Source: Ignatzschineria sp. RMDPL8A (GTDB lineage Bacteria > Pseudomonadota > Gammaproteobacteria > Cardiobacteriales > Wohlfahrtiimonadaceae). Taken from it: 64,000 nt of DNA. The notes below the pieces were generated by a model that saw only the letters and a list, made by a program, of their open reading frames with translations, had not been told where the DNA came from and did no database searches. The stretch lies in NCBI RefSeq assembly GCF_029815055.1, contig NZ_JAPPWA010000002.1, forward strand, positions 806,001-870,000, written 5' to 3'. Made by a program: the position numbers and the translations under genes. Positions 1,950 to 61,111 of this stretch are shown here, in pieces; position 1 is the stretch's first letter, and every line of letters begins with the position of its first letter.

Positions 1950-4900
1950 ATGAATAAAATTTATAGAGTGGTCTGGAATGAAGCAGTGAATCGCTGGGTC
2001 GTTACCTCAGAATTAGGCAGTAGCCATAAAAAGAGCTCGAAGTTTAAAGATAAAGTGTTGCAGGTTGGGGCGTTAACGTTCGGTATGATGCTGGGCAGTA
2101 GTGCCTATGCAACAAATTATAACTATACAACGGAGCAGCGGATTGATGTGGAAGAAGGCTTCGTACTAAAAAGTGGGGATAGCCTACAAATGGGCAATGG
2201 TTCAAAACCGATTAAGCTGGTAGTCAGCACCAAAGGATCGAATGTTTCGAGTTTTACCATAAAGGATGCAGGCGTTAATTTGACCTTTAACCAAGCGTTG
2301 ATCGCACATAATCGAACCAATACTACATTGTTTGATTTTGATTTTGGCGAAGATGCGGTTCAATTTGCCAAAGATATCTATGAGATTGATGCATCTGGGA
2401 TAACTTTTTTAGGTTCAGATACGGTTGCGAACGACATGCCAGGGGCGGACAATGAACAGGGCGCGGCAGTCATTTTTGATATTAAAACGGCCTACAAGCA
2501 GGATTTTCTTTTAAGTGTTAAAGAAGTGAGAACGGCTGCGGATCCCACACTATTGCATAAATATACCCACGGTTATGGGGCGATTTTTTCAGGGATAGAC
2601 GCGGGAAAAGAGTCAAAGTTAACTGTTAAAGATTCGCTCTTTAGACTCGAGCGGGGCACCGCGATTAAAGGGGTTGATGGGGGGCATATCGATGTCTTAG
2701 ATTCCAATCAAATCCTTTTCTCAAAATATCATTCGTCATCTGCACCAGTTAAAGACCCAAGTGCACATTACTCCATCGGTATTGAGCTCGATGGGGATGT
2801 TACGGCGACCTCACACGCCAATTTTTCCGTTGATAATAAAACTACGGAGCGGATTACACTCTATGACATTAAAAATGGGGCAACGCTTACAAGCTACAGC
2901 CAAACGCCTACATTTGCCGGGCACAGATATGAGTCCTTTATTGGAGCAAATATTGGTGAAAACGCCCATTTCATCAACCATGGCGATTTTAATTTAACAA
3001 ATAAAAAGCAAACCTTCGCAAATCTCTATGGCGAGGGGGCAACGGTGAGTAATCACGGCAATATTGCGGCTTCGAATGGCGTTGTCTTCCATATTGATGA
3101 ATCAAGCGCGCAGATTGAAAACCATGGAGAGATCCGGCTGACTGATGCGGGGCAATGGATTGTCTATAAAGGAACAGATGGTGAGGCTCACGCCATTAAA
3201 GTGATTGGCGGTAAGGTGATTGTCGGGGATAAGGTGACCGGGTTTACGCAAAATGGGCTCGATAATTTCACCTTTACCAATCTTGATATGACGGTTGAAG
3301 GTGGCGGAATTGGTTTTAATTTGGATAACAATATCAATATTTCCGGACAAATCGCACTGGAAGGTGAGGGTAATCAAGGACTTCATCTAACCGGCAGCGA
3401 AACCTTTACCTTTAATGAGGGTGCCGAGAGTGAGGCGCTCTTAATTACGCTCAATCAAGGGGATCAAGTTGCAATCAATGTGGATCGAACGGGTGGCCTT
3501 GCAACCTTAGAAGGGCTCAAAATTACCGGTAATGCGGGAACGGGCATTCAGGTTCTCAATGGCGATCTCCTCTTTAAAGGGTTAATCGAGATGGAAGAGG
3601 GCGGCACAGGCCTCTATCTAGCGAGTAAAACGGGAAGTGAGTTTACCAATGAAGGGGTAATCCATAGCGATATTCGTCTTGGTGATGGGGATAATATCTT
3701 TACCTCAGAAAAAGATGGGGCATCGGTGATGGGTGATATCACCGCGGGAAGTGGCAGTAATACCATCGCTATCCTCGATTTTAAAGGCGGAATGACCTTT
3801 AATAATGATGCCAATGCCGAAAGCCACAATACCGTAACCTTAACGGGCGGGACTGTTTCGGATATCGAAAGTAAGAATGGATCGCTCGATTTAACGCTTA
3901 AAGATGGCGTTGTCGTTAATGGCTCGCTCCATGCCAACGGGGATAAAACAAGTGAACTCACCCTGGATAATAACGACTTTCGTTATGATGAGGTTGGAAA
4001 GGTCACGGGCTTTAATGAGATCAACCTTAAAAATGAATCCACACTCACCGCAACCGAGGCATTTACCGATGTTGAAAAACTTGGCATTGATGCGGAGAGC
4101 CGTTTTGTCGTTAAAGAGGTCAATGGAGATTATCAGTTTGATGCAGCGCTTTGGGGCACAGGCACGGTGGATGTTGATTTAGGGGCAGAAGGGACAGCGC
4201 TTCACCACTTTATCTTCACCAATGAAACAGCGCCCGATCTTCTTTTCTCCGGAACGTTTAATCTAAAGAGTGGCGCATTAACGCTCAATAATGCGATCTA
4301 TAGCGCGAATTTGCAGGATGCCATTTTAAATATTGAGAAAGATGCTTTGTTGCAGATTAATTCCGATAATGTGGGGCAATTTAATGTCACTATCGGCAAA
4401 CTCAATATCAATCAAGGTGCGCTTGAATTTTTGGATGGAGATTTTACCCCGCTCCATGTGAAAGAGTTCTCCATCACGGCGGGTAGTAAAATTGTCGTGG
4501 AAGATATGGATGCTTTAACGGATTTGGGGACATCGGAGTTTAATCCCGCAGAAGAGGATTTCTTTAGTAATTATCTGCACCGCACCTATTTAGAGGCCGA
4601 TCAGTTTACCGGGGTTGGCGTAGAGCTCGATTTTGTCAATCAAGCGGGAGAGATTCTCCCACAGGTCGATATCGATGCGGTGAGAAAACTCAAAACGGGC
4701 GATACGGAAGTGGGCGAGGCTCATTATAGCGAGCTACTCTTTACCGCCGATGGGATTGAAGGAGGCAAAGGCTCCATTAATTTAGGCTATCTCCTCTCTG
4801 AGCTCAATGCATATGAAAACCAAACCATTGGTATTAGCAATCATGAAGGCGGATCTGAATTGGATGCGCTCCTCACTGGGAAAGGCGGATTCACCTTTGA

Positions 4901-7900
4901 TGCGCACTCTGAGCCAATTATTTTAACGCACAGCAATAATTACACCGGCGATACCATTGTCAATCAAGGGAAAGTGATTTTAGGGAATGATCAGGCGCTT
5001 GGCGGGATTGATCTAGAGAAGCAGACGGGCCAGCTCATTTTAAATGGGGGTAGCGTTGATCTAGCAGGATTCACTCAAGATGTCGATAGCGTACAGAGTA
5101 AAGTAGGCACGATTCTCGATCTTGCGGGTGGAACGCTCAATATTGATAATGGGCGACTTCCAAATATGAAATACAGAGAAAGTCATCTCTATGGTGAAAT
5201 CAAAGGGGATGGCGCGATCACGTTGGATAAAGGAGATGTCACGCTCCACAATCAAAATCATGATTTAAATGCCAACATTGAGATATATTACAACTCATCG
5301 CTAACCTTAAAAGATGTTCAGTCAGCGGGTTCAAGTACTATTTATCTTGGAATGCTCGGGAAGCTCAATCTCGAAGGAGAGGGGATTTTTGATAATACGG
5401 TGACAGGTGATGAGGAGACTACTTTAAATGTCAATGGCGGCAGTGAAACCGCTCCGCTCACATTAGCCGGTGATAATAGTGGTTTTAGCGGGACAGTGTC
5501 CATTGCTGATGATGTTTATGCCGTGGCTAAAGGGGAAAACAGTGTTGGAACGGGCACGCTTAATCTCAATAAGAGCGGAACGCTCGGGTTTGATGAATTT
5601 AAAGATGGCGATGAAACGGCGGAATTAGGCAATACAATTACCGGCTCGGGGTCACTCGTTGTTAATGACAATCAAATTAAGATGACAGGCAATCATGACG
5701 ATTTCAAAGGCACACTTGCGCTAAATGAAGCAACGTCTGCGTGGCATCTTGAAGCGTACGATCACTATCAAGTCAATTACGATGTGATCGGTAACGGTGA
5801 ACTTCAATTTAACCTTACAGATTCCACCAGTCAGATTACGCTCAGTGATCAATTTAGCGGTGATTTTGCTGGAGATTTAATTATCCAAACGGGGCATTTG
5901 GATCTCAATGAGGCGCATTTACCAAAACTTGAATCCACCCAATTAACGCTAGGCAGTGGCGCGTATAGTGAACTGAGTGTTGATGGCGATCTGCGCGGTT
6001 TAGTATTAGATGGCGGAACGCTCTATGTGCAGAAAAATGCGACGGGCGATCAGCTCAATACCTTAAGCGCGGGCGAAATTTATCTGAAAGATCAGAGCAA
6101 TATTATGATCAAAGATGAAGACTCGATCGGTCTATCCGGTGAAATGGAGGGCATCGATGAGAAAGGCTCGCTACTCGATCAGCAAACGCTGGCCTATGGA
6201 AATCGCTTTATCGAAGGCGAGGTTAAAGAGGGTGGCACGGCTCAATTAGCCTTAGTCGATGAAGAGGGTAACGCGTTAGAGAGCTCAAAACGGGTTGAAG
6301 TTGTGATTCAGCAAGGCGCAGGAACGGCCGATTATGACTATAAAGGGTTAGCGCTGAGCGACGGCATTGGCTTTGGTTATGGGCTGGTGAGTCTTACTGC
6401 GAATGCGGATAAAACCCTCACCATCGATAGCGTTGGCAGTGACGAGAAAGATCTGCACATTGAGCTTCATGGCGCGGGTGGATTTGATTTCCTCTCCGAT
6501 AAAGAGGGGTTGACGGTCAGTAACGGCAAGAACGATTACACCGGCGATACCACCTTTTCAGGCGGAAAGATTACCGCGGGGGCCAATGAGGTTTTTGGTG
6601 ATAAGGGCGCACTCATTTTAGAGAATGATGCTCACCTCGATATGGATACCTATGTTCAACATGCGGACTCATTAACCACATCAGAAGAAACGGTCGTAGA
6701 CTTAAATGCCGGCGATATTATTTTAAGCGGGACAGATGGGAATGGGAATGATCTCAATAGTGTGATTGATGGCGATTTAAAGGGTGGCCCAGAGAGTCAT
6801 TTAGTGGTTGAAAATGGCAATCTTACGGTCAATACGCACAATCCCGATCTTGAAACCAGCACGACCTTTAAAGATGATGCAACTGCAGATCTTAAATATG
6901 GCGATAGCCTTGGCAAAGGAACGATCGACATGGAAGGCGAGAATAAACTCAATATCCATGGCGGTGGCAATCTTGCCAATACCATTACTGGGGGCGCGGA
7001 TTCTGAGCTCAATATTTTAGGCGGAACGCCTGACGATCAAGTGGTGATTACCGGCGATAACTCCGGTTTTGATGGCAATCTCACCATTGACGATCTGGGT
7101 TATGCATCGACCAACACCATGGATGGACTTGGTAACGGCTATCTACAAAATGATGGTACGCTCGAGTTTAATAACCTTGGCGCGGTGGATTTTGATAATG
7201 CCTTTGGAGGCACCGGCGATTTTATCGTGGGCGATAGCCAAATTACGGTAAATCAGACGCCGAACGACTTCTCCGGCATGGTCGATTTAGATCAAGAGAG
7301 CTCACAATGGATTATCGGCGGCGATCTAACTGGCGATTACACGCTCGATTATGGCGTTCAAGGCAATGGCTCGCTTGTGGTCGATCTTGGCAATAAAGAG
7401 AGTGAATTTACGTTAGGTGACAAGATCAATCCCGATGAATTTACCGGAACGCTCGATCTCAATAGCGGTGAAATGGCGCTCAATGAAGATCATTACGATA
7501 AATTGAGCGGGGCCGATGTGGTCGTACGCGAGGATGGAAAACTGCATGTCGACGAGGATGGCTATCTCAATGAGCTCGATCTCGATGGCGGTACCATTCA
7601 TATTCACGTCAATGAGAATGAATCGGATCGTCACAATCTTCTTCACGTCGGCGAACTCGGTGCTGAGAGCGGTAGTCACATCATTTTAGATGATCTTGAT
7701 CTCTTAGGAAAAGAGGATGCCATCGATAATATCGATACAAGTGGCTCATTCTTTGATCAACAAAGTGGCGGGGCTGGCGGCGAGCAGATTATCCAAGCCG
7801 ATAAGATTAAAGACGGCAGCGAAGGCGCGCAACTCACCTTAGTGGATGAAGATGGCAATGCCATTGAGAGTATTAATCGCGTGGAAAAAGAGCTAGAGGA

Positions 7901-10715
7901 TGGCTCCGGTTCTGCGATTTATGATTACAGCGGTCTTGTGCTTGATAATGGGGTTAATATCGATTATGGCCTCGTTGGACTTAATGCCCATGAAGGTGAA
8001 TCGATCATTATTGAGAAAGGTGAAAATGATTCGACCGACTCGCTCAATGTAGAGTTAACGGGCGATGGCGGTTTTATCATCAATACTAACGATCAAACGA
8101 TTCATTTAGGCAATCAAAACAGCAATTATACGGGAGAAACAGAGGTGAATGGCGGTACGGTAATTGCCGATTCAGACAACGCCTTTGGGAATACCTCCGA
8201 GCTCAATCTTAATGATGATGCCTATTACGATCTCAATGGAAACGATCAAACCGTTGGGGAACTCAATACCGATCTTGATGCAACCGTTGATATTAACGAG
8301 GGCAATTTAACCATCTTAAATGGCGGTGAGGTGAATGGCGATCTGAAAGGATCGGGTAATCTCACGGTCGATAGTCAAGACGGTGGCGAACTCACCATTC
8401 ATGGCCCACAAGAGGAGTATCATGGCGATACTCATGTGCTTGAAGAGGGTGTGGTGAATCTCGATGATTTTGCCGGCTTAGGCGATGGCGGAATTGAAAA
8501 TGATGGCACCATCAATTATCTGGTCGATGGCGATGGCGAGCTCTCCAACCAATTTACGGGTGATCAGACCGGTTTAGTGGATCTCTCGGGCAGTGGCTCG
8601 GTTCATTTAACGGGCGATAATAGTGGTTACGATGGCGAGTTCTATTTCGGTCCGGATCAAGAAGTGATCGTGAACGACAGTAATGCGCTCGGTAATGGTG
8701 GCGATATCGAAATTATCGGCGGAGGCGATGGCGGTCTTGTGATCGCAGATGCGGAGAAACCGAACAGCTCCTTTGATAATAACTTTAAAGGGGATGGATC
8801 GATTACGCTCGATAATAGCGATGTGATCTTTACCGGCGATAATAGCGAACTCACGGGCGATCTGATTATTGAGGATGATTCACATCTTCACACGATCGAC
8901 CACGGCGTTCCCGGTGGTAATATTCATAATCACGGTGGCTGGACCGCGGAAGTGAATCCTGAGATCGATGTGGATTTCAATGGCGAGCTTTCCGGTGAGG
9001 GTGATCTTCATAAAATTGGCGATGGCAATCTCAATTTAAATGGGGATAACTCACACTTTGGCGGGAATACCATTGTGGATGAGGGGGCACTCAACATTGG
9101 CGATAATGCCCAATTTGGTAACGGTTCGGGCGATCTTATTGTCAATAATGATGGGTCGTTTAATCAAGGCAAAGAGTCGGAATCCCATTTTGATGATATC
9201 TACGTCAATGATGATGGACTCCTCAATCTTGGTGAAAATTCAACCATGAATGGCAATCATGTGATCGTTGATGATTACGGCCATTTAGTGCTCGATCAAG
9301 GCGCGGGATTAAATGCCGATGACGTCCTTGTGACTGATCATGGCGAGCTCTCGATGGATCATAATAGCTATATTAATAGCAATGTGACTGTCGATCCGGA
9401 TGCGTCAATCGGGGGATACGGCACCATCCATGGTGATCTTAATCTGAAAGGTCATCTCGATGTGGGCAGCCGTGTCGATCATATTGAGCCCAATACGGAG
9501 ATGGGTGAATTTGTTGTCGATGGTAATTTAATTGCCGAAGAGGGCAGTGTGATTCACTTTGGTAGCGATCAAACCGATGCAGACCGTCTCATTATTAAGG
9601 GCGATGCCACTGGTCAAAGCGGTGTTTGGGTGGATGATATCCATCATTTAGAACTGCATGAGCTGGGTGACGATGTGCTCTATATTCCGTTGGTCGATAT
9701 TGAAGGCAATAATAGTCTATTGCTTGATCATATCGGGCGTACCGTCGGGGGCGTTTATGAGTTTGAACTGGTACAAGATGACAATGGCAACTGGATGCTG
9801 AAAAACATGAAGGGCCATCGTCCTGAAACGGGCATCTATCTTGCCGGTTTAAGTGCCGCCAATAAACTCTTTAGCCATTCGATGGTAGAGCGTAACTACC
9901 TAAGCGAGGAGAGCCGACTTTGGACCTTCACGCACGGCAGTTTCGAGAAGTTTAACGATAATGGCGGCATCAATCGTACCAGTATCGATAGCTTCACTCT
10001 AATGATCGGAGGCGACCTACTTAAAACATCGTTAGCAGATAAACCATTTACCTTCGGGCTGATGGGCGGTTATGGATATAGCAGCAGTAAAACCACCAAC
10101 CGCGATACCGGCTCACGAGCGAAAGGTAGTGGTGATGGTTATTCTCTCGGGCTTTACGCCACCTTTGGCGATCAGCTCCAAGAAGGGCTCTATCTCGATG
10201 GCTCGCTCCAGTACGTCTATTTTAAAAATAGCGTGAAGAGCGATGGCTTACGCGATGAAACCTCAAAATCGAAAGGATTTGTTGGGTCAATCGAGGGGGG
10301 ATACACCTTTGGAATCGCGGAAAATGTCTATCTTCAACCGCAACTGCAACTCACCTGGATGGGTGCCAAAATGGATGATATGACCGATGGATCGGGCACG
10401 AAAATCCGTGGCAGTAAGGATAATATCGAAACTCGCTTTGGTGTGCGTCTCTTTGCGGATAAAGCACTCGCGAATGGCGGATCGGTTCGTCCTTATATGG
10501 ATCTTAACTATATCCATAACTCTAAACCGTTTGCCGCTGAGTTTGATGGCGTTCGCGTTGAGCAAAAGGGCACACGTAACTTAGGTGAAGTGAAAGTGGG
10601 CCTTGAAGCGGATGTGAATGACAACCTCAAAGTATGGGGCGATGTGGGCTTCCGTAAAGGGTCCAACAGCTACCGCGATACTAAAATTTCAGCCGGGATT
10701 CGTTATGAGTTTTAG
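1950..10715 (+). CDS. giant type V (classical) autotransporter, modular passenger (A)
   Basis: A 2921-residue autotransporter. Residues 1-31 form an extended signal peptide region (MNKIYRVVWN...SELGSSHKKSSK), then a hydrophobic stretch with likely cleavage after SSAYA, residue 54. The passenger is a beta-helix-like sequence rich in Gly, Asn and Asp, with many TGDNSGF.G and LDLNGG-type repeats. From about residue 979 it contains modules of about 530 residues. A GGYGTIHGDLNLKGHLDVGSR-like autochaperone segment precedes the barrel. The beta-barrel spans about residues 2624-2921 and ends in the outer-membrane signature IRYEF. No protease or lipase catalytic motif was seen, so adhesion or aggregation is the likely role (inference). 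Its last 127 codons and terminator are almost identical to those of the next gene. Confidence 0.93.
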   Translation: MNKIYRVVWNEAVNRWVVTSELGSSHKKSSKFKDKVLQVGALTFGMMLGSSAYATNYNYTTEQRIDVEEGFVLKSGDSLQMGNGSKPIKLVVSTKGSNVSSFTIKDAGVNLTFNQALIAHNRTNTTLFDFDFGEDAVQFAKDIYEIDASGITFLGSDTVANDMPGADNEQGAAVIFDIKTAYKQDFLLSVKEVRTAADPTLLHKYTHGYGAIFSGIDAGKESKLTVKDSLFRLERGTAIKGVDGGHIDVLDSNQILFSKYHSSSAPVKDPSAHYSIGIELDGDVTATSHANFSVDNKTTERITLYDIKNGATLTSYSQTPTFAGHRYESFIGANIGENAHFINHGDFNLTNKKQTFANLYGEGATVSNHGNIAASNGVVFHIDESSAQIENHGEIRLTDAGQWIVYKGTDGEAHAIKVIGGKVIVGDKVTGFTQNGLDNFTFTNLDMTVEGGGIGFNLDNNINISGQIALEGEGNQGLHLTGSETFTFNEGAESEALLITLNQGDQVAINVDRTGGLATLEGLKITGNAGTGIQVLNGDLLFKGLIEMEEGGTGLYLASKTGSEFTNEGVIHSDIRLGDGDNIFTSEKDGASVMGDITAGSGSNTIAILDFKGGMTFNNDANAESHNTVTLTGGTVSDIESKNGSLDLTLKDGVVVNGSLHANGDKTSELTLDNNDFRYDEVGKVTGFNEINLKNESTLTATEAFTDVEKLGIDAESRFVVKEVNGDYQFDAALWGTGTVDVDLGAEGTALHHFIFTNETAPDLLFSGTFNLKSGALTLNNAIYSANLQDAILNIEKDALLQINSDNVGQFNVTIGKLNINQGALEFLDGDFTPLHVKEFSITAGSKIVVEDMDALTDLGTSEFNPAEEDFFSNYLHRTYLEADQFTGVGVELDFVNQAGEILPQVDIDAVRKLKTGDTEVGEAHYSELLFTADGIEGGKGSINLGYLLSELNAYENQTIGISNHEGGSELDALLTGKGGFTFDAHSEPIILTHSNNYTGDTIVNQGKVILGNDQALGGIDLEKQTGQLILNGGSVDLAGFTQDVDSVQSKVGTILDLAGGTLNIDNGRLPNMKYRESHLYGEIKGDGAITLDKGDVTLHNQNHDLNANIEIYYNSSLTLKDVQSAGSSTIYLGMLGKLNLEGEGIFDNTVTGDEETTLNVNGGSETAPLTLAGDNSGFSGTVSIADDVYAVAKGENSVGTGTLNLNKSGTLGFDEFKDGDETAELGNTITGSGSLVVNDNQIKMTGNHDDFKGTLALNEATSAWHLEAYDHYQVNYDVIGNGELQFNLTDSTSQITLSDQFSGDFAGDLIIQTGHLDLNEAHLPKLESTQLTLGSGAYSELSVDGDLRGLVLDGGTLYVQKNATGDQLNTLSAGEIYLKDQSNIMIKDEDSIGLSGEMEGIDEKGSLLDQQTLAYGNRFIEGEVKEGGTAQLALVDEEGNALESSKRVEVVIQQGAGTADYDYKGLALSDGIGFGYGLVSLTANADKTLTIDSVGSDEKDLHIELHGAGGFDFLSDKEGLTVSNGKNDYTGDTTFSGGKITAGANEVFGDKGALILENDAHLDMDTYVQHADSLTTSEETVVDLNAGDIILSGTDGNGNDLNSVIDGDLKGGPESHLVVENGNLTVNTHNPDLETSTTFKDDATADLKYGDSLGKGTIDMEGENKLNIHGGGNLANTITGGADSELNILGGTPDDQVVITGDNSGFDGNLTIDDLGYASTNTMDGLGNGYLQNDGTLEFNNLGAVDFDNAFGGTGDFIVGDSQITVNQTPNDFSGMVDLDQESSQWIIGGDLTGDYTLDYGVQGNGSLVVDLGNKESEFTLGDKINPDEFTGTLDLNSGEMALNEDHYDKLSGADVVVREDGKLHVDEDGYLNELDLDGGTIHIHVNENESDRHNLLHVGELGAESGSHIILDDLDLLGKEDAIDNIDTSGSFFDQQSGGAGGEQIIQADKIKDGSEGAQLTLVDEDGNAIESINRVEKELEDGSGSAIYDYSGLVLDNGVNIDYGLVGLNAHEGESIIIEKGENDSTDSLNVELTGDGGFIINTNDQTIHLGNQNSNYTGETEVNGGTVIADSDNAFGNTSELNLNDDAYYDLNGNDQTVGELNTDLDATVDINEGNLTILNGGEVNGDLKGSGNLTVDSQDGGELTIHGPQEEYHGDTHVLEEGVVNLDDFAGLGDGGIENDGTINYLVDGDGELSNQFTGDQTGLVDLSGSGSVHLTGDNSGYDGEFYFGPDQEVIVNDSNALGNGGDIEIIGGGDGGLVIADAEKPNSSFDNNFKGDGSITLDNSDVIFTGDNSELTGDLIIEDDSHLHTIDHGVPGGNIHNHGGWTAEVNPEIDVDFNGELSGEGDLHKIGDGNLNLNGDNSHFGGNTIVDEGALNIGDNAQFGNGSGDLIVNNDGSFNQGKESESHFDDIYVNDDGLLNLGENSTMNGNHVIVDDYGHLVLDQGAGLNADDVLVTDHGELSMDHNSYINSNVTVDPDASIGGYGTIHGDLNLKGHLDVGSRVDHIEPNTEMGEFVVDGNLIAEEGSVIHFGSDQTDADRLIIKGDATGQSGVWVDDIHHLELHELGDDVLYIPLVDIEGNNSLLLDHIGRTVGGVYEFELVQDDNGNWMLKNMKGHRPETGIYLAGLSAANKLFSHSMVERNYLSEESRLWTFTHGSFEKFNDNGGINRTSIDSFTLMIGGDLLKTSLADKPFTFGLMGGYGYSSSKTTNRDTGSRAKGSGDGYSLGLYATFGDQLQEGLYLDGSLQYVYFKNSVKSDGLRDETSKSKGFVGSIEGGYTFGIAENVYLQPQLQLTWMGAKMDDMTDGSGTKIRGSKDNIETRFGVRLFADKALANGGSVRPYMDLNYIHNSKPFAAEFDGVRVEQKGTRNLGEVKVGLEADVNDNLKVWGDVGFRKGSNSYRDTKISAGIRYEF
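4884..8066 (+). repeat. two full ~530-residue passenger modules of autotransporter A
   Basis: Within the passenger, the motif GGF recurs at residues 979, 1510 and 2040, that is every 531 and 530 residues. The order of landmarks after each is similar: N.YTG(D/E)T, an FG with a following LNL-type strand, a DNSGF.G strand, a LNE(A/D)H segment, an LDGGT strand, a (L/F)DQQ motif, then (L/V)DE(D/E)GNA, YDY.GL and YGLV. Conservation is at protein level and much diverged at base level. The third module is cut short by the autochaperone and barrel. Confidence 0.8.
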
Positions 10716-10783
10716 GGAGCTCGGTTAGTTAAACGGTCAGCACACCATTAATGATAAAAGGCGATCTTCGGATCGCTTTTTTT
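10332..10783 (+). repeat. 3' homologous tract, copy 1 (barrel end plus terminator)
   Basis: This stretch covers the last 127 codons of autotransporter A, its stop, the 45-base spacer and the terminator. It aligns without gaps to 16141-16591 with about 14 mismatches by hand count, roughly 97% identity. Just upstream, the two barrels fall to a clearly lower similarity. Confidence 0.9.
10761..10783 (+). terminator. rho-independent terminator of autotransporter A
   Basis: A perfect GCGATC stem closed by a TTCG tetraloop (GCGATC-TTCG-GATCGC) is followed by seven T. The C(UUCG)G loop is unusually stable. The same hairpin follows the second autotransporter. Confidence 0.93.
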
Positions 10784-10953
10784 ATGTGTGAACATTGATG
10801 ATGAACCTATATTAAATTTTATTTTCTGGTGAGGTTAGGAAAGAAAGGGATTGTTTTTTAATAATTGACTATTATGCTATTGGGCTAATAGTGTTAAGTA
10901 TTGTAATGTTGGTTACCTTAATCTGATGGATACAATAGGAAGGAAGAGTATAG

Positions 10954-13900
10954 ATGAATAGAGTGTATCGAATTATTTGGAGTGTTAGGCTTTTCGGTTG
11001 GGTAGTGACCTCTGAATTAGGACATGCTCGGAAAAAATCTTCAAAACAGACTCGAATGGTTCGAAGGGGGAGGCGTGCTCTATCCCGTTGTGGCGCGATT
11101 ATGTCGGTAGGTCTTATGGGATTATCAAGCTCATTGTTGAGTTCTCCCGTATATGGGCATTCATTGCCTTCTCTCTCAGTTCTTGGTGAGCATCAGATTG
11201 GTGTTGGAGTGACGGAGTCATATCCTAATGAGGCGCTGCAAGCATTGAGTGGGATCCGTTTAGATGGAACGCTTAATCTTGGTGGAAAGGGTGTTTTTCA
11301 GAATTCGTTATCGGGCAGCGAAAGCGGACGATTAAATATTACGCAGGATGCTCACATCATTTTTGATCGTAGCCACGATGCTTATAAAGGGCAATATCAG
11401 ATCGATACACGTGGGAAATTAACCATTCGTGATTTACAGGCACTGGGATTTGATAATACTGCAGTGGTTGAGGGCGATCTACTGATGGTTCAGCTAACAG
11501 GGCAGATTCATAATAAATTTGAAGGGCAAGGCACTATTCGTTTAGTGGGGAGTGATCTTATTTTAGCGGGTTATACAGGTGGAATGACAAGCTTTAGTGG
11601 GATGCTCGATATTGATCAAAACTCTATCTATCGCTTTAACCGTGATGCGAATACTTTTACGCTGCATCATAATATTCGTGGGGCAGGGATTTTCCAAGTA
11701 GATATTGAGCCGAGTAATCTGTTTAATTTTACCTGGGATATGAAAGGGGATGAGTTTAATGGAACGCTACAGTTAACTAGTGGTACGATCGACTTTAATA
11801 CTGATCATATGACCTACTTAAATAAGCTACCCAATGCAACGTTGGAGGTTGGTGCTTCAGGAACGGTCAACGTTCATAGTGGTTTGACTCAATCAAGTAA
11901 AGGGTTAACGCTTGATGGTGGCACGATCAATTTTACAGCGCAAACAGGCGGCTTTGAAACACTCAAGATCAAAGAGCATATTCACGTGAAAAAGGGGGTG
12001 AGTACGATCAAGGTCAATGGGGCTGATTTTAAGACAGATACGCTTCCTTCTGGGAACTTCTTTGATCAGCAACAAGGCGCTTTAGCCGGCATGATTATTC
12101 AAGGGAAAACAGCATCAAAAGAGACGGGTGCCGAGATCTATCTGGAGGATGAAAAGGGCAATCCTATAAGTGAAAAAGAGGCGACAAAAACCGCGTTAGC
12201 CGATAATGCTGGATTTGCCTATTATAGTGCCGGTCAAGGATTAATTATTACGGATGGTAAAGAGGGGGAGAATGGAATCGGGTATGGTGCGACTTTAACG
12301 TCACTTGAAGCGAATCAAAATCACTCCATCTTAATCAGTAATCATAAAGATAATGAGAATCAGGCAAAAAAGTTTAAGGTGTTACTTACAGGAGAAGGTG
12401 GCTTTACCTTTAAATCAGAAGATCAAATTACGCTATACCGTGATGCCCACGAAAGGCCCAATGATTACCGTGGGGTTACAACACTAACATCCGGCAAGTT
12501 AAATCTACAGAGCGATCAGGTACTTGGACGTACATCCAATATTATTTTAAATCACAATACAGAGCTTGATTTAAACCATATAGCCCAAACGGCGGGAGGA
12601 TTGAATACCGCAACAGGATCGCTTTTAAATTTAAATGAGGGGCATCTCTCTTTAATTGGAGATGGAATAATAGAAGGGTTTTTAACGGGGAGTGATAAGA
12701 GTCATTTAACAATAGCAGATGGAGAGCGCCTCTCTATTAAGCAACTTGATAATCATCCTTTTAAAGGAACGCTTGTTGTTAATCAGGATGCGACATTGGC
12801 ACTTTATGGTGTGGCTTCTATAGGCGGGTTTGGCAAAGTGAATCTTAAACAAGGAACGCTCCTCTTTACCGAAGAAGCTAAAGGGGTATTTGGTAATGAG
12901 ATTATCACCACCAAGGATGATAAAACGGCGCTCATTAAACTTGATAAACAAGCCGATATTCATTTTACAGGAGATCGTTCAACTTATGCTGGTCGTTTTG
13001 CATTAGAAGATGAGAGCCGATTGACGATTACTCACGCCTATGCGCTAGGTAACCATGAGTATAATCAAGTTACCATTGGTAAAGAGGCAACACTTGCCCT
13101 AAATAGATTTTCCCATCAGTTAAATAACGCCATTGTAGGAGAAGGAGCCATTGATTTAAACGATCAGGCGTCAATTGGCATTAAGGGCGATTATAGCGGT
13201 TATACAGGGCGGCTTTCAGTGGATGAGAATTCCGAATTTATCATTGATAAAATGGGGAGTTATACGCTTCATCATGGTTTAGGCGGTGCAGGAACGGTCT
13301 CAGTAACGCTAGATAGTCGCGACCGTCAATTCACACTCGGTCAAGCGGATATGAGTGGATTTTCTGGAAATTTAATACTGAACCAAGGCACCATGGCTTT
13401 AGATCTCGATCATCAGGCTAAATTAAAAGGCGCAGAGCTTACGTTTAAAAAGGGCTCAATTGGGATTGTGCAAACAAGTGATGAGAATGATCGGTGGAAT
13501 GTGCTTAATTTAGCGGGAGGAACGCTTCAATTTAAAGGCAATTCCTTCGATCCGCTCTATGTAGAGTCGCTTCATGTGATGTCTGGTAGTGAACTAATGA
13601 TTGATGATCTTGAGGCAATCAAAGGGCAAGAGAGTTTAGATGACATTGATCGTTCAATCAGCTTTTTTGATCAGCAAAAAGGTGTGATTGGGGCTGAATT
13701 TGTGGAAGCCAATCAGCTGACCGATAAGAGTCACGGCTCCTCTATTACGTTAGTCAATAAAGAAGGTCAATTGATTGAAAGTGGCTTAGAAGCACGGCAT
13801 GAGCTTGAGGGCGGCGTAGCGATTTACGATTATAAAGGAATCGTAGAGTCTAAAGAGGGAGAGGGTGGCTTAATTGCCTTAACCTATGGATTAACGGAAT

Positions 13901-16524
13901 TAGAAGCAAAGAAAGATCACTTTTTAACATTAAAAAATGATGCGGAGGGCAATACAAAATTAGGGGTAATTCTATCAGGTGAAGGTGGATTTACTTTTGA
14001 TATTACCCCATCAAGTAAAGAACATCCTGTTGAGGTTGGTAATGCAAAAAGCAGTTATATGGGTGAAACGCATATTAAAGGAAGCGAAGTGCGGGCTACC
14101 ACAGATAATGCTTTTGGACGAACGAGCCATCTTAATTTAGAAGATGGAAGTCATGTGACATTTGTGGGAGAAAAGCGACAAGAGGTAGGGGTTCTTAGTA
14201 TCTCGAATAGTGCGAAGCTCTCACTGAATGAGAGTAATTTAATAATTCGTAATGGCGGAACAATTGACGGCTCGATTACAAGTGATAAAAACGGGCAATT
14301 GACTGTAGCAGGGGGGGAGTTGACGCTCAGTAATGGTAATGAGGATTACGCAGGCACCACACGCATCGATCAGGGGGCTGGGGTTGTACTTAAAAATCAT
14401 CACGCTCTTGGAAAAAGCTCGGAGGGAAAGAGTGCGGGAGTGATCTGGAATGAGGGACGCTTAACGCTCGCAGGTGAAGGTCGATTTGATAATCGGCTTA
14501 TGGGTAGTAAAACAGCGTCTGTTACCGTTTCTGGGGATGATACGATCTTTACTGCAAATAATAGTGATTATTATGGCACAATTTTAATTGAAAATAATAA
14601 AACGTTAATTGCTGAGCATGAGGCAGCGCTAGGTCGTGGAGATGTGCAGTTAACAGATCATGCCACGTTAACCTATCGTAATGTTTCTGGAGATAACCAG
14701 CAGGACATTGCGGTGATTGGTACTCAGATAAGTGGCACTCAATCAAGTTATCTCAATGTTGAAAATAGCGCTCTCTATCTACAGGGGGATAACAATGGCT
14801 TTAAAGGGGCGTTGGTCATTGATGATTTATCAAGAGTCACAATGGATCAATTTGGGTTAATTTCCGGAAATATTAACAATGAGGGAGCGTTGACTTTCGA
14901 TATTAATGAAGGCGTAAAAACGTATCGTGGACAATTGACGGGGAGAGGTATTTTTACAAAATTGGGCGGTGGAACGTTAGCATTTGAACAAAGCCAGCAT
15001 TATAGTGGGGATATTGAGATTAAGCAGGGCGCATTACGCATCGATTCTGGAATAACTTATCAAACCGATGCGACGCTTTATATCGATCAAGAAGGAATGC
15101 TCACATTTCTGGATCAGTCATTTGTTTCAGCAAATTCAGTTAAGAATAATGGGGTAATTGGTGGATATGGCACGCTTCAGGGGAATTTAAATAATAACGG
15201 AAAACTGCAGATAGGATCGCGAATTAATGCACAAGGTGATAATCAGCCCGACGCAAATCAGTTTACTCCAGGGGTGTTTACGATCAAAGGGGACTATTTC
15301 GGCGGTAAAGGTAGTACGATCCATTTTGGTACGATTTATGGTAATGATCAATCGCCCACTGACCAGTTAGTCATTGAGGGGAAAGCTACCGGAGAGAGCC
15401 AGGTGGTTGTGGATAATATTCATGGATTGGGTGCTCCTACCAATCGAGGCATTGAGCTGATCAGGATTGATGATGGAGATCATTCCGATATTGAACTGAT
15501 TCATAAGGGCCGTACAGTGGGAGGTGCGTATGAATATAGGCTCGTTGAGCTAGAAAAAGGGCATTGGTATCTCACCAATCATATTGAGGACGAAGTGTTG
15601 CCCCCAGATGTGGATCCAACGACGCCTCAATTTAGATCAGAAACAGGTGCCTATATTGGCAATTTAGCTTCAGCTAATAGACTTTTTAATCATGGATTGC
15701 ACGATCGCCAATATATTACGCCAGAAAGCTCATTATGGACACGAACCAATGCAAATTTTGGCACGTTTAGAGATAGTAGCAATCAGGCGAAGATAACGCA
15801 GGATTACTATGCCTTCCAAGTTGGAGGTGACGTGATTAAAGGAGTGTTTGGGGATCAGCCATTCACATTTGGGTTGATGGGCGGTTATGGTTACACTGAA
15901 AGTAAGAGTAGAAATGAAGTCACAGGGTATCAATCAAAGGGCCGTGGTGATGCATATGCAATTGGAATCTATGGGACCTTAGGGGAGGATCATTATCGCT
16001 ATGTCGATGGATGGCTCCAATATATCTATATGGATAGTACGATTAAAAGTGCAGGTATAGATAATGAAAGTTATAAAGTTAAAGGATTCATTGCCTCTAT
16101 TGAAGCTGGCTATGCATTTGAATTAAGTCAAAATCTCCATCTTCAACCGCAACTGCAACTCACCTGGATGGGCGCCAAAATGGATGATATGACCGATGGA
16201 TCGGGCACGAAAATCCGTGGCAGTAAGGATAATATTGAAACCCGTCTCGGTGTGCGTCTCTTTGCGGATAAAGCACTCGCGAATGGCGGATCAATTCGTC
16301 CTTATATGGATCTTAACTATATCCATAACTCTAAACCGTTTGCCGCTGAGTTTGATGGCATTCGCGTTGAGCAGAAGGGCACACGTAACTTAGGTGAGGT
16401 GAAAGTGGGCCTTGAAGCGGATGTGAATGACAACCTCAAAGTGTGGGGCGATGTGGGCTTCCGTAAAGGGTCCAACAGCTACCGCGATACTAAAATTTCA
16501 GCCGGGATTCGTTATGAATTTTAG
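10954..16524 (+). CDS. large type V autotransporter, modular passenger (B)
   Basis: An 1856-residue paralogue of the preceding gene. It starts with the same kind of extended signal peptide region (MNRVYRIIWS...SELGHARKKSSK) and a hydrophobic stretch that probably ends near residue 68 (SSPVYG). The passenger begins in the middle of the module shared with A and shows GGF landmarks at residues 482 and 1011, 529 residues apart. An autochaperone segment (GGYGTLQGNLNNNGKLQIGSR-like) and a barrel from about residue 1561 follow, ending IRYEF. Outside the last 127 codons it is visibly more AT-rich than A. An AGGAAGG ribosome binding site lies about 8 bases before the ATG. It has its own terminator, and the A terminator separates the two genes, so it is probably transcribed separately. 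The function is likely adhesion (inference). Confidence 0.92.
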   Translation: MNRVYRIIWSVRLFGWVVTSELGHARKKSSKQTRMVRRGRRALSRCGAIMSVGLMGLSSSLLSSPVYGHSLPSLSVLGEHQIGVGVTESYPNEALQALSGIRLDGTLNLGGKGVFQNSLSGSESGRLNITQDAHIIFDRSHDAYKGQYQIDTRGKLTIRDLQALGFDNTAVVEGDLLMVQLTGQIHNKFEGQGTIRLVGSDLILAGYTGGMTSFSGMLDIDQNSIYRFNRDANTFTLHHNIRGAGIFQVDIEPSNLFNFTWDMKGDEFNGTLQLTSGTIDFNTDHMTYLNKLPNATLEVGASGTVNVHSGLTQSSKGLTLDGGTINFTAQTGGFETLKIKEHIHVKKGVSTIKVNGADFKTDTLPSGNFFDQQQGALAGMIIQGKTASKETGAEIYLEDEKGNPISEKEATKTALADNAGFAYYSAGQGLIITDGKEGENGIGYGATLTSLEANQNHSILISNHKDNENQAKKFKVLLTGEGGFTFKSEDQITLYRDAHERPNDYRGVTTLTSGKLNLQSDQVLGRTSNIILNHNTELDLNHIAQTAGGLNTATGSLLNLNEGHLSLIGDGIIEGFLTGSDKSHLTIADGERLSIKQLDNHPFKGTLVVNQDATLALYGVASIGGFGKVNLKQGTLLFTEEAKGVFGNEIITTKDDKTALIKLDKQADIHFTGDRSTYAGRFALEDESRLTITHAYALGNHEYNQVTIGKEATLALNRFSHQLNNAIVGEGAIDLNDQASIGIKGDYSGYTGRLSVDENSEFIIDKMGSYTLHHGLGGAGTVSVTLDSRDRQFTLGQADMSGFSGNLILNQGTMALDLDHQAKLKGAELTFKKGSIGIVQTSDENDRWNVLNLAGGTLQFKGNSFDPLYVESLHVMSGSELMIDDLEAIKGQESLDDIDRSISFFDQQKGVIGAEFVEANQLTDKSHGSSITLVNKEGQLIESGLEARHELEGGVAIYDYKGIVESKEGEGGLIALTYGLTELEAKKDHFLTLKNDAEGNTKLGVILSGEGGFTFDITPSSKEHPVEVGNAKSSYMGETHIKGSEVRATTDNAFGRTSHLNLEDGSHVTFVGEKRQEVGVLSISNSAKLSLNESNLIIRNGGTIDGSITSDKNGQLTVAGGELTLSNGNEDYAGTTRIDQGAGVVLKNHHALGKSSEGKSAGVIWNEGRLTLAGEGRFDNRLMGSKTASVTVSGDDTIFTANNSDYYGTILIENNKTLIAEHEAALGRGDVQLTDHATLTYRNVSGDNQQDIAVIGTQISGTQSSYLNVENSALYLQGDNNGFKGALVIDDLSRVTMDQFGLISGNINNEGALTFDINEGVKTYRGQLTGRGIFTKLGGGTLAFEQSQHYSGDIEIKQGALRIDSGITYQTDATLYIDQEGMLTFLDQSFVSANSVKNNGVIGGYGTLQGNLNNNGKLQIGSRINAQGDNQPDANQFTPGVFTIKGDYFGGKGSTIHFGTIYGNDQSPTDQLVIEGKATGESQVVVDNIHGLGAPTNRGIELIRIDDGDHSDIELIHKGRTVGGAYEYRLVELEKGHWYLTNHIEDEVLPPDVDPTTPQFRSETGAYIGNLASANRLFNHGLHDRQYITPESSLWTRTNANFGTFRDSSNQAKITQDYYAFQVGGDVIKGVFGDQPFTFGLMGGYGYTESKSRNEVTGYQSKGRGDAYAIGIYGTLGEDHYRYVDGWLQYIYMDSTIKSAGIDNESYKVKGFIASIEAGYAFELSQNLHLQPQLQLTWMGAKMDDMTDGSGTKIRGSKDNIETRLGVRLFADKALANGGSIRPYMDLNYIHNSKPFAAEFDGIRVEQKGTRNLGEVKVGLEADVNDNLKVWGDVGFRKGSNSYRDTKISAGIRYEF
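12397..13983 (+). repeat. full ~530-residue passenger module of autotransporter B
   Basis: The unit runs from GGF at residue 482 to GGF at residue 1011 (529 residues). It shows the same landmark order as the modules in autotransporter A, including SFFDQQ, LVN(K)EGQ, YDYKG and YGLTELEA. A partial unit lies before it and another after it. Confidence 0.75.
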
Positions 16525-57481: not shown

Positions 57482-59431
57482 TTAGTCGCTAGTTTGACGC
57501 TTTTTTTCCATATAGTCAAAAAAACGATAGACCCGTTCCTCTTTAAGGGTTTTGGTCATCGGCGGCAGACTATTGAGAAATTGAACGCCATATCGTTTTG
57601 TGGAAAGACGCGGATCGGCTATCACAAGCACACCATAATCGCTCGGGTCACGAATCAATCGTCCGACCCCTTGTTTGAGCGAAATAATCGCGCGCGGCAG
57701 TTGATAGAGCATAAAAGGGTTTTTATCCTGACTGCGAAGCAGATCAATTTTCGCTTGCTCAATCGGGTCGCCAGGTGAGGCAAAGGGGAATTTCTCGATA
57801 ATCACGCAAGCAAGGGCATCGCCTTTAACGTCCACCCCTTCCCAAAAGCTCATGGTGCCAAGCAAAATCCCATTGCCCGCTTCACGAAAGGCCTCGATGA
57901 GTGCCATCTTCGGCATCTCTCCTTGGACAAAGAGCGGGTATTCGGTGCGATCTTTTAAGAGTGTATGCGCCTCATTGAGCGCGCGATAACTGGTAAAGAG
58001 AATAAAGGTGCGCCCTTTAGCGGCATCGATCACCGGGAGCGAGGCTTCAATCATCTCCGGTAGGAAATTGGCATCGCTTGGATTGGGAAGTCCCGGCGGA
58101 TGATAGAGGAGCGAAATGCGCGGATAATCAAAGGGACTATCGAGCTTTAAGGTATTCTCGGTGGAAAGCCCGAGCGGGCGACAAAAATAGTTAAAATCAT
58201 CGCGAACGGCAAGGGTCGCAGAGGTGAAAATCCAGCTTGCTTGCAGTTTTTGGCTATTTTGGCGGAAATGATCGGAGATATCGAGCGGGGTTGAATTAAA
58301 GCCCACATGAAAGGTATAAGTTTCAAGCCAATTGATGGCATTTTTATTCTCTTCAGTTGCAAGAAGAAGACGCTTCCAGCGGAGCGTTAACTCCTCAATC
58401 CGATCGATCATTTTGGTAAACACCGTATGGCGTGAGGCAAGGGGCTTTGTGATCGTGACCAGTGTTTCAAGCACTGAATGAATGTCGCTATAGAGCGTTG
58501 TGATGATGGGGTTCGCTTCAAATTCTGCGAGAGCAAAACGTTGGTTCACTTGCGGAAGCGCACGGCGTAGATCGGTAATCTTTTTAAACAGCGCATCGCA
58601 CGCGGTATCGTGTCCGCTAAAATCCGGTGCTTCCACGGCAATGGCGCGATTAAGATCATCTACCCAATCTTGAAATTGTTTGGTGGAGAGTTGCGTACTA
58701 AAGAAGAGGCTCGCGGTTTCCGCTAATTGATGGGCCTCGTCGATAATAATTACATCAACATCCGGTAAGATTTCGCCAAATCCCTCGTTTTTAAGAGAAA
58801 AGTCGGCGCAGAGTAAGTGATGGTTAATCACCACGATATCCGATTCCATCGCCTTTTTACGCGCTTTAAAGACAAAACAATCCTCAAAGTTTGGGCACTC
58901 ATTATGGAGGCAATTTTCCGTCGTTGAGGTCACCTGTGGCCAGAGCCCGTGCTCGGTAATGCCGGAAAGCTGGGTAAGATCGCCATGAATGTCTTGATTG
59001 GCAAAGCGCTCAATCTTATAAAATTGCTCCACCTGTTTTTTATTTTCAAAGCGCCCACGACTGCGCACCGATTGAATGCGATAGAGGCAAGCATAGTTGG
59101 CGCGTCCCTTTAGAAGGCTTGTGCTAATCGGTTTTTTAATCAGCGAGCGAATGAGGGGAATATCTTTCTCAAAGAGCTGGTCTTGCAGATGCTTAGTTCC
59201 CGTTGAGACGAGGACTTTTGCATCGGAGAGAAGGGCGGGGACGAGATAGGCGAAGGTTTTTCCGGTTCCGGTTCCCGCTTCAACAACGAGTGTCTCGCTC
59301 GAATTGATCGCTTGATAGACGCGTTCCGCCATTTCGATCTGTTGCTCGCGCGGCTCATAGCCGGAAATAACTTGGCTCAATTCGCCGTCGGGGCCGAAAA
59401 AGGAGGTGATCGCGTTTGGGTGTTTGCTCAT
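57482..59431 (-). CDS. yoaA: DinG/YoaA-family ATP-dependent DNA helicase
   Basis: A 649-residue XPD-like 5'-3' helicase implicated in DNA repair. Walker A is in VVEAGTGTGKTFAYLVPALL. An iron-sulfur cluster is suggested by Cys in YACLYR and the set C..NECPNFEDC. Walker B is IIDEAHQLAETAS, and SAT-like TSATLA, FILFTSYRAL, GTMSFWEGVDVKGDAL and KQGVGRLIRDPSDYGV follow. Length favours YoaA over the longer DinG. A DnaA-box-rich spacer lies just upstream. Confidence 0.93.
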   Translation of the reverse strand: MSKHPNAITSFFGPDGELSQVISGYEPREQQIEMAERVYQAINSSETLVVEAGTGTGKTFAYLVPALLSDAKVLVSTGTKHLQDQLFEKDIPLIRSLIKKPISTSLLKGRANYACLYRIQSVRSRGRFENKKQVEQFYKIERFANQDIHGDLTQLSGITEHGLWPQVTSTTENCLHNECPNFEDCFVFKARKKAMESDIVVINHHLLCADFSLKNEGFGEILPDVDVIIIDEAHQLAETASLFFSTQLSTKQFQDWVDDLNRAIAVEAPDFSGHDTACDALFKKITDLRRALPQVNQRFALAEFEANPIITTLYSDIHSVLETLVTITKPLASRHTVFTKMIDRIEELTLRWKRLLLATEENKNAINWLETYTFHVGFNSTPLDISDHFRQNSQKLQASWIFTSATLAVRDDFNYFCRPLGLSTENTLKLDSPFDYPRISLLYHPPGLPNPSDANFLPEMIEASLPVIDAAKGRTFILFTSYRALNEAHTLLKDRTEYPLFVQGEMPKMALIEAFREAGNGILLGTMSFWEGVDVKGDALACVIIEKFPFASPGDPIEQAKIDLLRSQDKNPFMLYQLPRAIISLKQGVGRLIRDPSDYGVLVIADPRLSTKRYGVQFLNSLPPMTKTLKEERVYRFFDYMEKKRQTSD

Positions 59432-59526
59432 GATTAAATATTGCGCAATGACTGCTTGACTTTGAGTGAAAAGAATAAAAACTTAAATTTGTCTATTTTT
59501 CGCGCAAAACTGAATAGGCGCATCAG

Positions 59527-59586
59527 ATCAATGGATTAACTACTTGCTCGAGAGCTATCCCAAACCTTATCCACAGGCATTGTGGA
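59527..59586 (+). repeat. DnaA-box repeat, copy 1
   Basis: Sixty bases aligning without gaps to 59705-59764 with 44 matches by hand count. The conserved blocks are ATCAATGGATT, CTATCCCAAA, CTTATCCACAG and TGTGGA; the 15 or so bases in between differ. Confidence 0.8.
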
Positions 59587-59704
59587 GAGTTGTGGAGAAG
59601 GGCTCTGGGTGAAATTTCACCATCAATTCGCTTGACATTTTTAATTATAAAACAGAAAGGGATTTTAGTGTCTGATTTTTGATCATCTCTGAAACCCCTC
59701 TCAT

Positions 59705-59764
59705 ATCAATGGATTTGACCGCTATTATAAACCTATCCCAAAACTTATCCACAGACAATGTGGA
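59705..59764 (+). repeat. DnaA-box repeat, copy 2
   Basis: Second copy of the element, 178 bases from the first. It is followed by TTGGGATA, which pairs back to TATCCCAA and makes a nested inverted repeat around TTATCCACA...TGTGGA. Confidence 0.8.
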
Positions 59765-59791
59765 AAGCTTGGGATAAGTCAGTTGTGTCGA

Positions 59792-61111
59792 TTAGGGCGT
59801 TTCTTGATAGCCGCCGACAATGACGGTGCTCAATTTTTCCACATCCACATGCTTTTTAAACGCCGCTTGGATCATCTCGCGAGTCACATTATTGACGTTA
59901 TCGGCATATTGCTCGAAGTAATCGAGCGGTAATTGATAGGTGGCAATGGAGAGAAGTGCGCTGGCCATCTTCATGTTGCTATCGAGATCGAGGGCCATGC
60001 TCCCGGTGAGATTATTTTTCGCGCGGGTCAACGCCTCTTCGCTCGGGCCTTCCTCAATAAAGCGCTTAACGAGCTTTTTCGTCTCAGAAATGGCATGATC
60101 GACATCTTGATTGGTGGTCGAGAGCGAAATGGTAAACGGCCCCTTTAAAAACGAGGGCGCAAAATAGCTATAGATGCCGTAGGTGAGCCCTTGCTTTTCG
60201 CGGATATCCATCATGAGTTCTGAGGTTAATCCACTGCCGCCTAAGACGTGATTGCCTACAAAGAGCGCGAAATAATCGGGATCAAAGCGATCGATCGCAG
60301 GGTGGCCCATCATAATGCGCGATTGCGGACTATCAAAGGCGATCACTTTCGTTTCACCTTTGCTAGGAAGGGGCGTTTCATCAATGGCCGGTTGAGCCTC
60401 GCCGGTGCCAAGGGTCTCGCTAATACGATTGGCCAGTGTTTTCGCCTCGGCGAGAGATAGATCGCCGACGATAATAATCTTTGCATTATTGCTGTGATAA
60501 TAACGTTCTTTAAAGGCGTTTAGATCATCGGTAGTGAGCTTTTTGAGCGATTCCACGAGCATCTCGGAGGTCGATCCAAGATGTTGCCCGGGGTAGAGCA
60601 TCGCGTAGTAGGCTTCACTTGCAAGGCTATTTTGATTATCAAGGCGCGCTTTTTGAGCATCGATAATTTGCGCAACTTCTCGATTGAATGTCTCTTCATC
60701 AAAGCGGGGCGATTTTAAAATCTCTAACAGCAGATCAACGGACGGCGTTAATACTTCCTCATCGGTGAGCGAGCGGTAACGGATCGTCGTTTGCGTCATA
60801 TTACTGCCGGCGGTAATGGAGGTCGCTAAGCCTTCCATCGTCTCAATGAGCGTCTCTTCATCTTGATTTTTTGTTCCTTTCACAAGGAGTGATGCGGTCA
60901 AAGAGGCGAGCCCATGTTGATCCCCTGCACGGAAATTCCCCGCATCGAGCGCAATAATCAGATCGAGAATGGGGAGCTCTGGCAGATTGAGATAATAGAC
61001 GCTTGCGCCTTCTTCGGTGGTCCAGGTGGTGGGTTTATCCATAGCGTTGGCACTCAGTAGCAGACCCAGCGTTAATGCGATGGTCGCGAGTGATTTCAAT
61101 AATCGTTTCAT
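59792..61111 (-). CDS. M16-family peptidase, non-catalytic partner (zinc motif lost)
   Basis: A 439-residue M16-fold protein with a signal peptide (LLKSLATIALTLGLLLSANA), so periplasmic. The position of the HxxEH zinc motif reads SLTAS (residues 70-74), lacking all ligands, so it should not cut peptides itself. The C-terminal half retains the substrate-binding R/Y region (GGSGLTSELMMDIREKQGLTYGIYSYF). It lies two bases after the catalytic M16 gene, the typical heterodimeric M16 arrangement in which one subunit supplies zinc and the other the R/Y pair. Confidence 0.9.
   Translation of the reverse strand: MKRLLKSLATIALTLGLLLSANAMDKPTTWTTEEGASVYYLNLPELPILDLIIALDAGNFRAGDQHGLASLTASLLVKGTKNQDEETLIETMEGLATSITAGSNMTQTTIRYRSLTDEEVLTPSVDLLLEILKSPRFDEETFNREVAQIIDAQKARLDNQNSLASEAYYAMLYPGQHLGSTSEMLVESLKKLTTDDLNAFKERYYHSNNAKIIIVGDLSLAEAKTLANRISETLGTGEAQPAIDETPLPSKGETKVIAFDSPQSRIMMGHPAIDRFDPDYFALFVGNHVLGGSGLTSELMMDIREKQGLTYGIYSYFAPSFLKGPFTISLSTTNQDVDHAISETKKLVKRFIEEGPSEEALTRAKNNLTGSMALDLDSNMKMASALLSIATYQLPLDYFEQYADNVNNVTREMIQAAFKKHVDVEKLSTVIVGGYQETP

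Follow-up and report, generated by a model that had tools for sequence, protein, structure and literature searches.

A 360-bp intergenic region in the window (the whole 64,000-nucleotide stretch analyzed, C2:806001-870000 of a 2.18-Mb genome, with Ignatzschineria as the closest named relatives at this locus) holds two DnaA-box clusters, 178 bp apart, each made up of box III, 3 bp, box II, 5 bp, an inverted box I, 1 bp, and an inverted box IV. On balance, we favor reading this element as a pair of DnaA assembly sites of the DARS-core type, possibly doubling as a DnaA-controlled promoter of the downstream gene, yoaA. From their sequence, both clusters very likely bind DnaA; that they would also promote ADP release and DnaA reactivation we infer from the geometry alone. 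An earlier note on this DNA had offered several functions for the element. The DARS-like option is well supported, as the core geometry is the same as in Escherichia coli DARS1 and DARS2 and is missing from datA and oriC; the datA-like option is not, as datA lacks the triple of boxes carried by the window copies.

Two four-box clusters upstream of yoaA

Both clusters lie between a gene for an M16-family peptidase and a gene for a YoaA/DinG-type helicase (Table 1), and the flanks are, as stated previously, not dnaA, dnaN, or mnmG. Copy 1 reads CTATCCCAA-acc-TTATCCACA-ggcat-TGTGGAGAG-t-TGTGGAGAA and copy 2 reads CTATCCCAA-aac-TTATCCACA-gacaa-TGTGGAAAG-c-TTGGGATAA. The perfect TTATCCACA boxes claimed for the two copies are present, as are the additional near-boxes around them and the perfect 14-base palindrome. 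The element had also been described as two 60-base copies; direct repeats of 46 nt (83% identity) and 15 nt (93%) were indeed found, both spaced 178 bp, but similarity is not uniform over 60 bases, and two conserved blocks surround a diverged stretch. The nested inverted repeats described at the same time result from the arrangement of the DnaA boxes; their outer arm, TATCCCAA...TTGGGATA, is complete in copy 2, whereas copy 1 has TTGTGGAGAA instead. Both copies score 22/27 for the III-3-II-5-I core, the same as DARS2, and in each an IHF-like ATCAATGGATT lies at position -41 relative to box II. Box III of both copies matches the DnaA consensus at just six of nine positions, which counts against the DARS reading.

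Table 1. Features of the yoaA upstream region, in window coordinates
Feature	Position	Strand	Sequence	Match or remark
yoaA, DNA repair helicase YoaA (DinG/XPD-like), downstream gene	57482-59431	-		NCBIfam NF053712, 802 bits (cut-off 680)
Copy 1 IHF-like site	59526-59538	+	GATCAATGGATTA	8/9 informative consensus positions; away from DARS2 distance
Copy 1 DnaA box III	59555-59563	+	CTATCCCAA	6/9; invariant among yoaA-locus relatives
Copy 1 DnaA box II	59567-59575	+	TTATCCACA	9/9, perfect match
Copy 1 DnaA box I, inverted, 5 bp from box II	59581-59589	-	CTCTCCACA	7/9
Copy 1 fourth box, 1 bp from box I	59591-59599	-	TTCTCCACA	8/9; matches gap-15 peak of genome-wide box spacing
Perfect 14-bp palindrome, between copies	59608-59621		GGTGAAATTTCACC	
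Copy 2 IHF-like site	59704-59716	+	TATCAATGGATTT	8/9
Sigma70-like promoter towards yoaA	59724-59751	-	TGGATA-16-TATAAT	Overlaps copy 2 boxes II and III; -10 hexamer at least 4/6 in 8/8 relatives
Copy 2 DnaA box III	59733-59741	+	CTATCCCAA	6/9
Copy 2 DnaA box II	59745-59753	+	TTATCCACA	9/9, perfect match
Copy 2 DnaA box I, inverted	59759-59767	-	CTTTCCACA	7/9
Copy 2 fourth box	59769-59777	-	TTATCCCAA	7/9
M16-family peptidase-like protein, upstream gene	59792-61111	-		Pfam PF05193 and PF00675

Core geometry in E. coli and in the window genome

We compared the window copies with 10 E. coli DnaA-bound regions, namely, those named in PMC11317965 except rne. Among these, the III-3-II-5-I triple occurs in DARS1 and DARS2 only; direct reading of datA, oriC/mioC, dnaA, polA, purH, nrdA, nrdD, and rpoH showed it to be absent from each of these regions. 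In geometry, the window copies are identical to DARS1, whose core is TAATACACA tgg TTATCCACA ggaat AGTGGATAA, and to DARS2, whose core is TTCTTCACA act CTATCCACA gaaaa GGTGAATAA. Box I is known to oppose boxes II and III at both E. coli DARS, with identical spacing (PMC5742627), and in vivo, E. coli DnaA favors tandem boxes 2 to 3 bp apart (PMC11317965).

DARS1 (bioD-uvrB) arranges boxes III, II, and I as the window copies do in order, orientation, and spacing (3 bp and 5 bp); it likewise has an intergenic position upstream of a DNA-repair gene, and it requires no IHF site. It differs in being single copy, in lacking a fourth box at 1 bp, and in its neighbor genes, and its box III is TAATACACA rather than CTATCCCAA. 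DARS2 (rppH-mutH) also has the III-3-II-5-I core, and its second cluster, with 2-bp and 5-bp gaps, contains a fourth inverted box at 1 bp as in the window copies. DARS2 needs the IHF sites IBS1-2 and Fis sites; we located its IHF-like sites at positions -99 and -83 relative to box II, 3 bp apart, as described for IBS1-2. Searching both window copies for an IHF-like site at the DARS2 distance gave a best match of 7/9 near that position, the copies' own sites being those at -41. Because they have no IHF-like site at about -110, unlike the kdsB locus of the same genome (C2:1085312; DARS2-like, with an 8/9 IHF-like site at -110), the window copies were not classed as DARS2 and come closer to the DARS core or DARS1 than to a full DARS2. 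The lack of this site, which is present at the kdsB locus and at most class-wide loci, also counts against the DARS reading.

E. coli datA is, like the window element, a noncoding DnaA-box cluster away from oriC, and it contains a tandem pair, but the inverted box 5 bp downstream is missing. The same holds for the promoter double boxes of polA, purH, nrdA, and mioC, which share with the window element tandem boxes 2 to 3 bp apart and possible promoter control but lack the inverted third box. In E. coli, III-3-II-5-I is a sequence rule separating DARS from datA, oriC, and promoter boxes.

The genome-wide clustering of TTATCCACA, a check proposed in the earlier note, was assessed at all 56 perfect DnaA boxes of the genome. 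A tandem upstream box at 2 to 3 bp and an inverted downstream box at 5 bp are far commoner than boxes at other distances, and a further inverted-box peak at 15 bp corresponds to the fourth box; on a 16-by-16 spacer grid, (3,5) and (3,15) are the sole strong peaks, the latter again reflecting the fourth box. III-3-II-5-I, with each partner box required to match at six or more of nine positions, was found at 7/56 perfect boxes versus 0.0085 expected, and at most 1 was seen in 2000 resamplings. Six of these seven clusters are intergenic, and one lies within a large ORF. With six or more intergenic clusters of DARS-core geometry here, versus two or three in E. coli, not all of them need be active DARS.

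Conservation in relatives and across Gammaproteobacteria

As for conservation of the spacer, likewise proposed as a check, eight Ignatzschineria-group genomes each keep one DARS-core cluster upstream of yoaA, in the corresponding position, with the M16 gene on one side and the yoaA region on the other; in one of them, a short ORF call intervenes. Boxes III and II are invariant in the alignment of this locus, whose mean column identity is 39% and whose flanks are poorly alignable. In these relatives, a WATCAATATAGA block is also strongly conserved, at position -108 or -118 relative to box II (a 10-bp shift in two genomes), and is a 7/9 IHF match in most; it might represent an IHF site that has degenerated or an element regulating yoaA, although this is only suggestive.

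Further orthologous cluster groups are located at kdsB-mazG (the window genome and Ignatzschineria), at kdsB-eda in a second genus of the family, and at typA-nagZ in relatives, where there are often two copies, 227 to 476 bp apart. One relative in the order has a cluster directly upstream of uvrB, i.e., in the E. coli DARS1 neighborhood. At the kdsB loci of the family, the core is accompanied by an IHF-like site at about -109, matching at 9/9 in several genomes. The pattern TTATCCACA-N5-TGTG was found in 28/40 relatives, and a reversed control pattern gave 0 matches. Since the clusters occupy orthologous positions in relatives, they are neither a dispersed repeat nor a product of chance. An ordinary intergenic repeat scattered through the genome, which the earlier note had named as one observation that would overturn a DnaA-related function, is not what we found: related elements elsewhere share the box geometry and not the flanks.

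Across the class, CACA-N3-TTATCCACA-N5-TGTG is present in 97/143 gammaproteobacterial genomes, nearly all from different families, compared with 3/143 for an altered control with a 5-bp upstream spacer. In 18/27 class-wide loci, versus 1.1% of control windows, the minus strand carries the IHF consensus (8 to 9 of 9 positions) between -113 and -107 relative to box II. In a phylum-level sample, the core is also present in a minority of genomes outside Gammaproteobacteria. Several of the class-wide clusters adjoin similar PriA-like genes.

Alternative explanations and the DnaA cycle

GC skew, sampled along the genome, is negative before C2:50-68 kb and positive beyond it, and it switches again at 1.4 to 1.5 Mb; 12 perfect boxes cluster at C2:50-68 kb, adjoining an 82% AT stretch. 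The window element is situated mid-replichore, about 0.81 Mb from this GC-skew origin, and hence away from a classical origin, as the earlier note had it; such a place between oriC and ter fits a DARS. The putative oriC region (C2:54400-63250) contains three DnaA-box subclusters over 9 kb, with the 82% AT stretch at C2:62760-62830; dnaA is on another contig, at C1:23.5 kb. The suggestion that the element is a secondary replication origin, or a misplaced oriC, draws on its DnaA-box clusters and a moderately AT-rich stretch, but the skew flips at C2:50-68 kb and not at 865 kb, and E. coli oriC does not have the III-3-II-5-I geometry; we give this explanation almost no credence and discarded it on the GC skew. 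It is also highly improbable that the element serves the M16 gene as a hairpin or terminator, or that it is a dispersed repeat of the REP type, with TTATCCACA present in it by chance. Copy 2 RNA folds well (z = -6.4), there is one terminator-like prediction on the minus strand, and related elements exist elsewhere in the genome; copy 1 and a relative, however, fold weakly (z about -2), and a proper U tract is absent, so a terminator was judged a weak candidate. Sequence outside the boxes is not shared between loci, and this, together with the orthologous placement, ruled out a mobile or REP-like repeat; the geometry, moreover, matches that of the E. coli DARS and is fixed across the class, as the survey with its altered-spacing control indicates.

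Passive titration, in which high-affinity clusters would soak up DnaA and leave its nucleotide state unchanged, fits the presence of several DnaA-box clusters per genome, and titration of DnaA by the chromosome is documented in E. coli (PMC12371093). Titration could do without the fixed 3/5 spacing and without orthologous placement, though, and one box per site would be enough; we consider it improbable. Control of the yoaA promoter is the strongest rival, and one that may coexist with DARS activity, given the sigma70-like promoter that overlaps copy 2 and the conservation of its -10. DnaA on boxes II and III would cover the -35 region and the spacer and would make expression of the repair helicase follow the DnaA cycle, while nucleotide exchange would be incidental or absent. 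The overlap of this yoaA-directed promoter with box II of copy 2 is a point against a pure DARS reading and keeps alive the promoter option of the earlier note. Its -10 hexamer matches at 4 to 6 of 6 positions in all eight relatives with the same spacing, spacings of 15 or 17 bp scoring lower, and E. coli DARS1 and DARS2 likewise lie upstream of repair genes (uvrB and mutH). Against this, copy 1 has no comparable -10, the -35 matches at only 4/6 positions, and the same cluster geometry is found at loci without a yoaA gene; promoter occlusion, moreover, requires neither the inverted box I nor an exact 5-bp gap. As a full explanation, promoter control seems to us rather unlikely.

If the window copies are DARS-core sites, DnaA would bind the tandem pair II/III cooperatively, and DnaA on the inverted box I would meet the box II protomer head to head. 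In E. coli, such a head-to-head arrangement loosens ADP from DnaA, and the apo-DnaA is freed to rebind ATP. The window copies would act in a DARS1-like manner, IHF independent or differently activated, and the DARS2-like site adjoining kdsB, with its IHF-like site at the canonical distance, would work alongside them; the yoaA promoter, too, could be under the control of the DnaA complex on the window copies.

The genome encodes a DnaA 45% identical to that of E. coli and has a Fis-family gene and three HU/IHF-family genes. Neither the genome nor 30 relatives yielded an Hda above the model cut-off, and a candidate at C2:552457 was rejected, as it lies within a 385-aa ORF that is not among the Hda-model matches; the RIDA inactivator Hda may be missing or strongly diverged in the order. 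We tentatively propose that Cardiobacteriales, apparently without Hda, might control DnaA via an expanded repertoire of four-box DARS-type sites, with the doubled yoaA site as an IHF-independent variant that would also tie a repair helicase to the DnaA cycle, and that the DARS core with an IHF site at about -110 might be an ancestral class-wide module of Gammaproteobacteria. The DARS literature that we found concerns sites in E. coli and close relatives. If most of the sampled gammaproteobacterial families share an invariant core of three boxes and, at a set distance from it, an IHF-like site, DnaA recharging would be general, and testably so, and a lineage with doubled yoaA sites and no detectable Hda would provide a natural test of a differently run DnaA cycle.

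Elsewhere in the window (1950-16524), two neighboring autotransporter-like genes are very large (2921 and 1856 aa), and their C-terminal parts are nearly identical.
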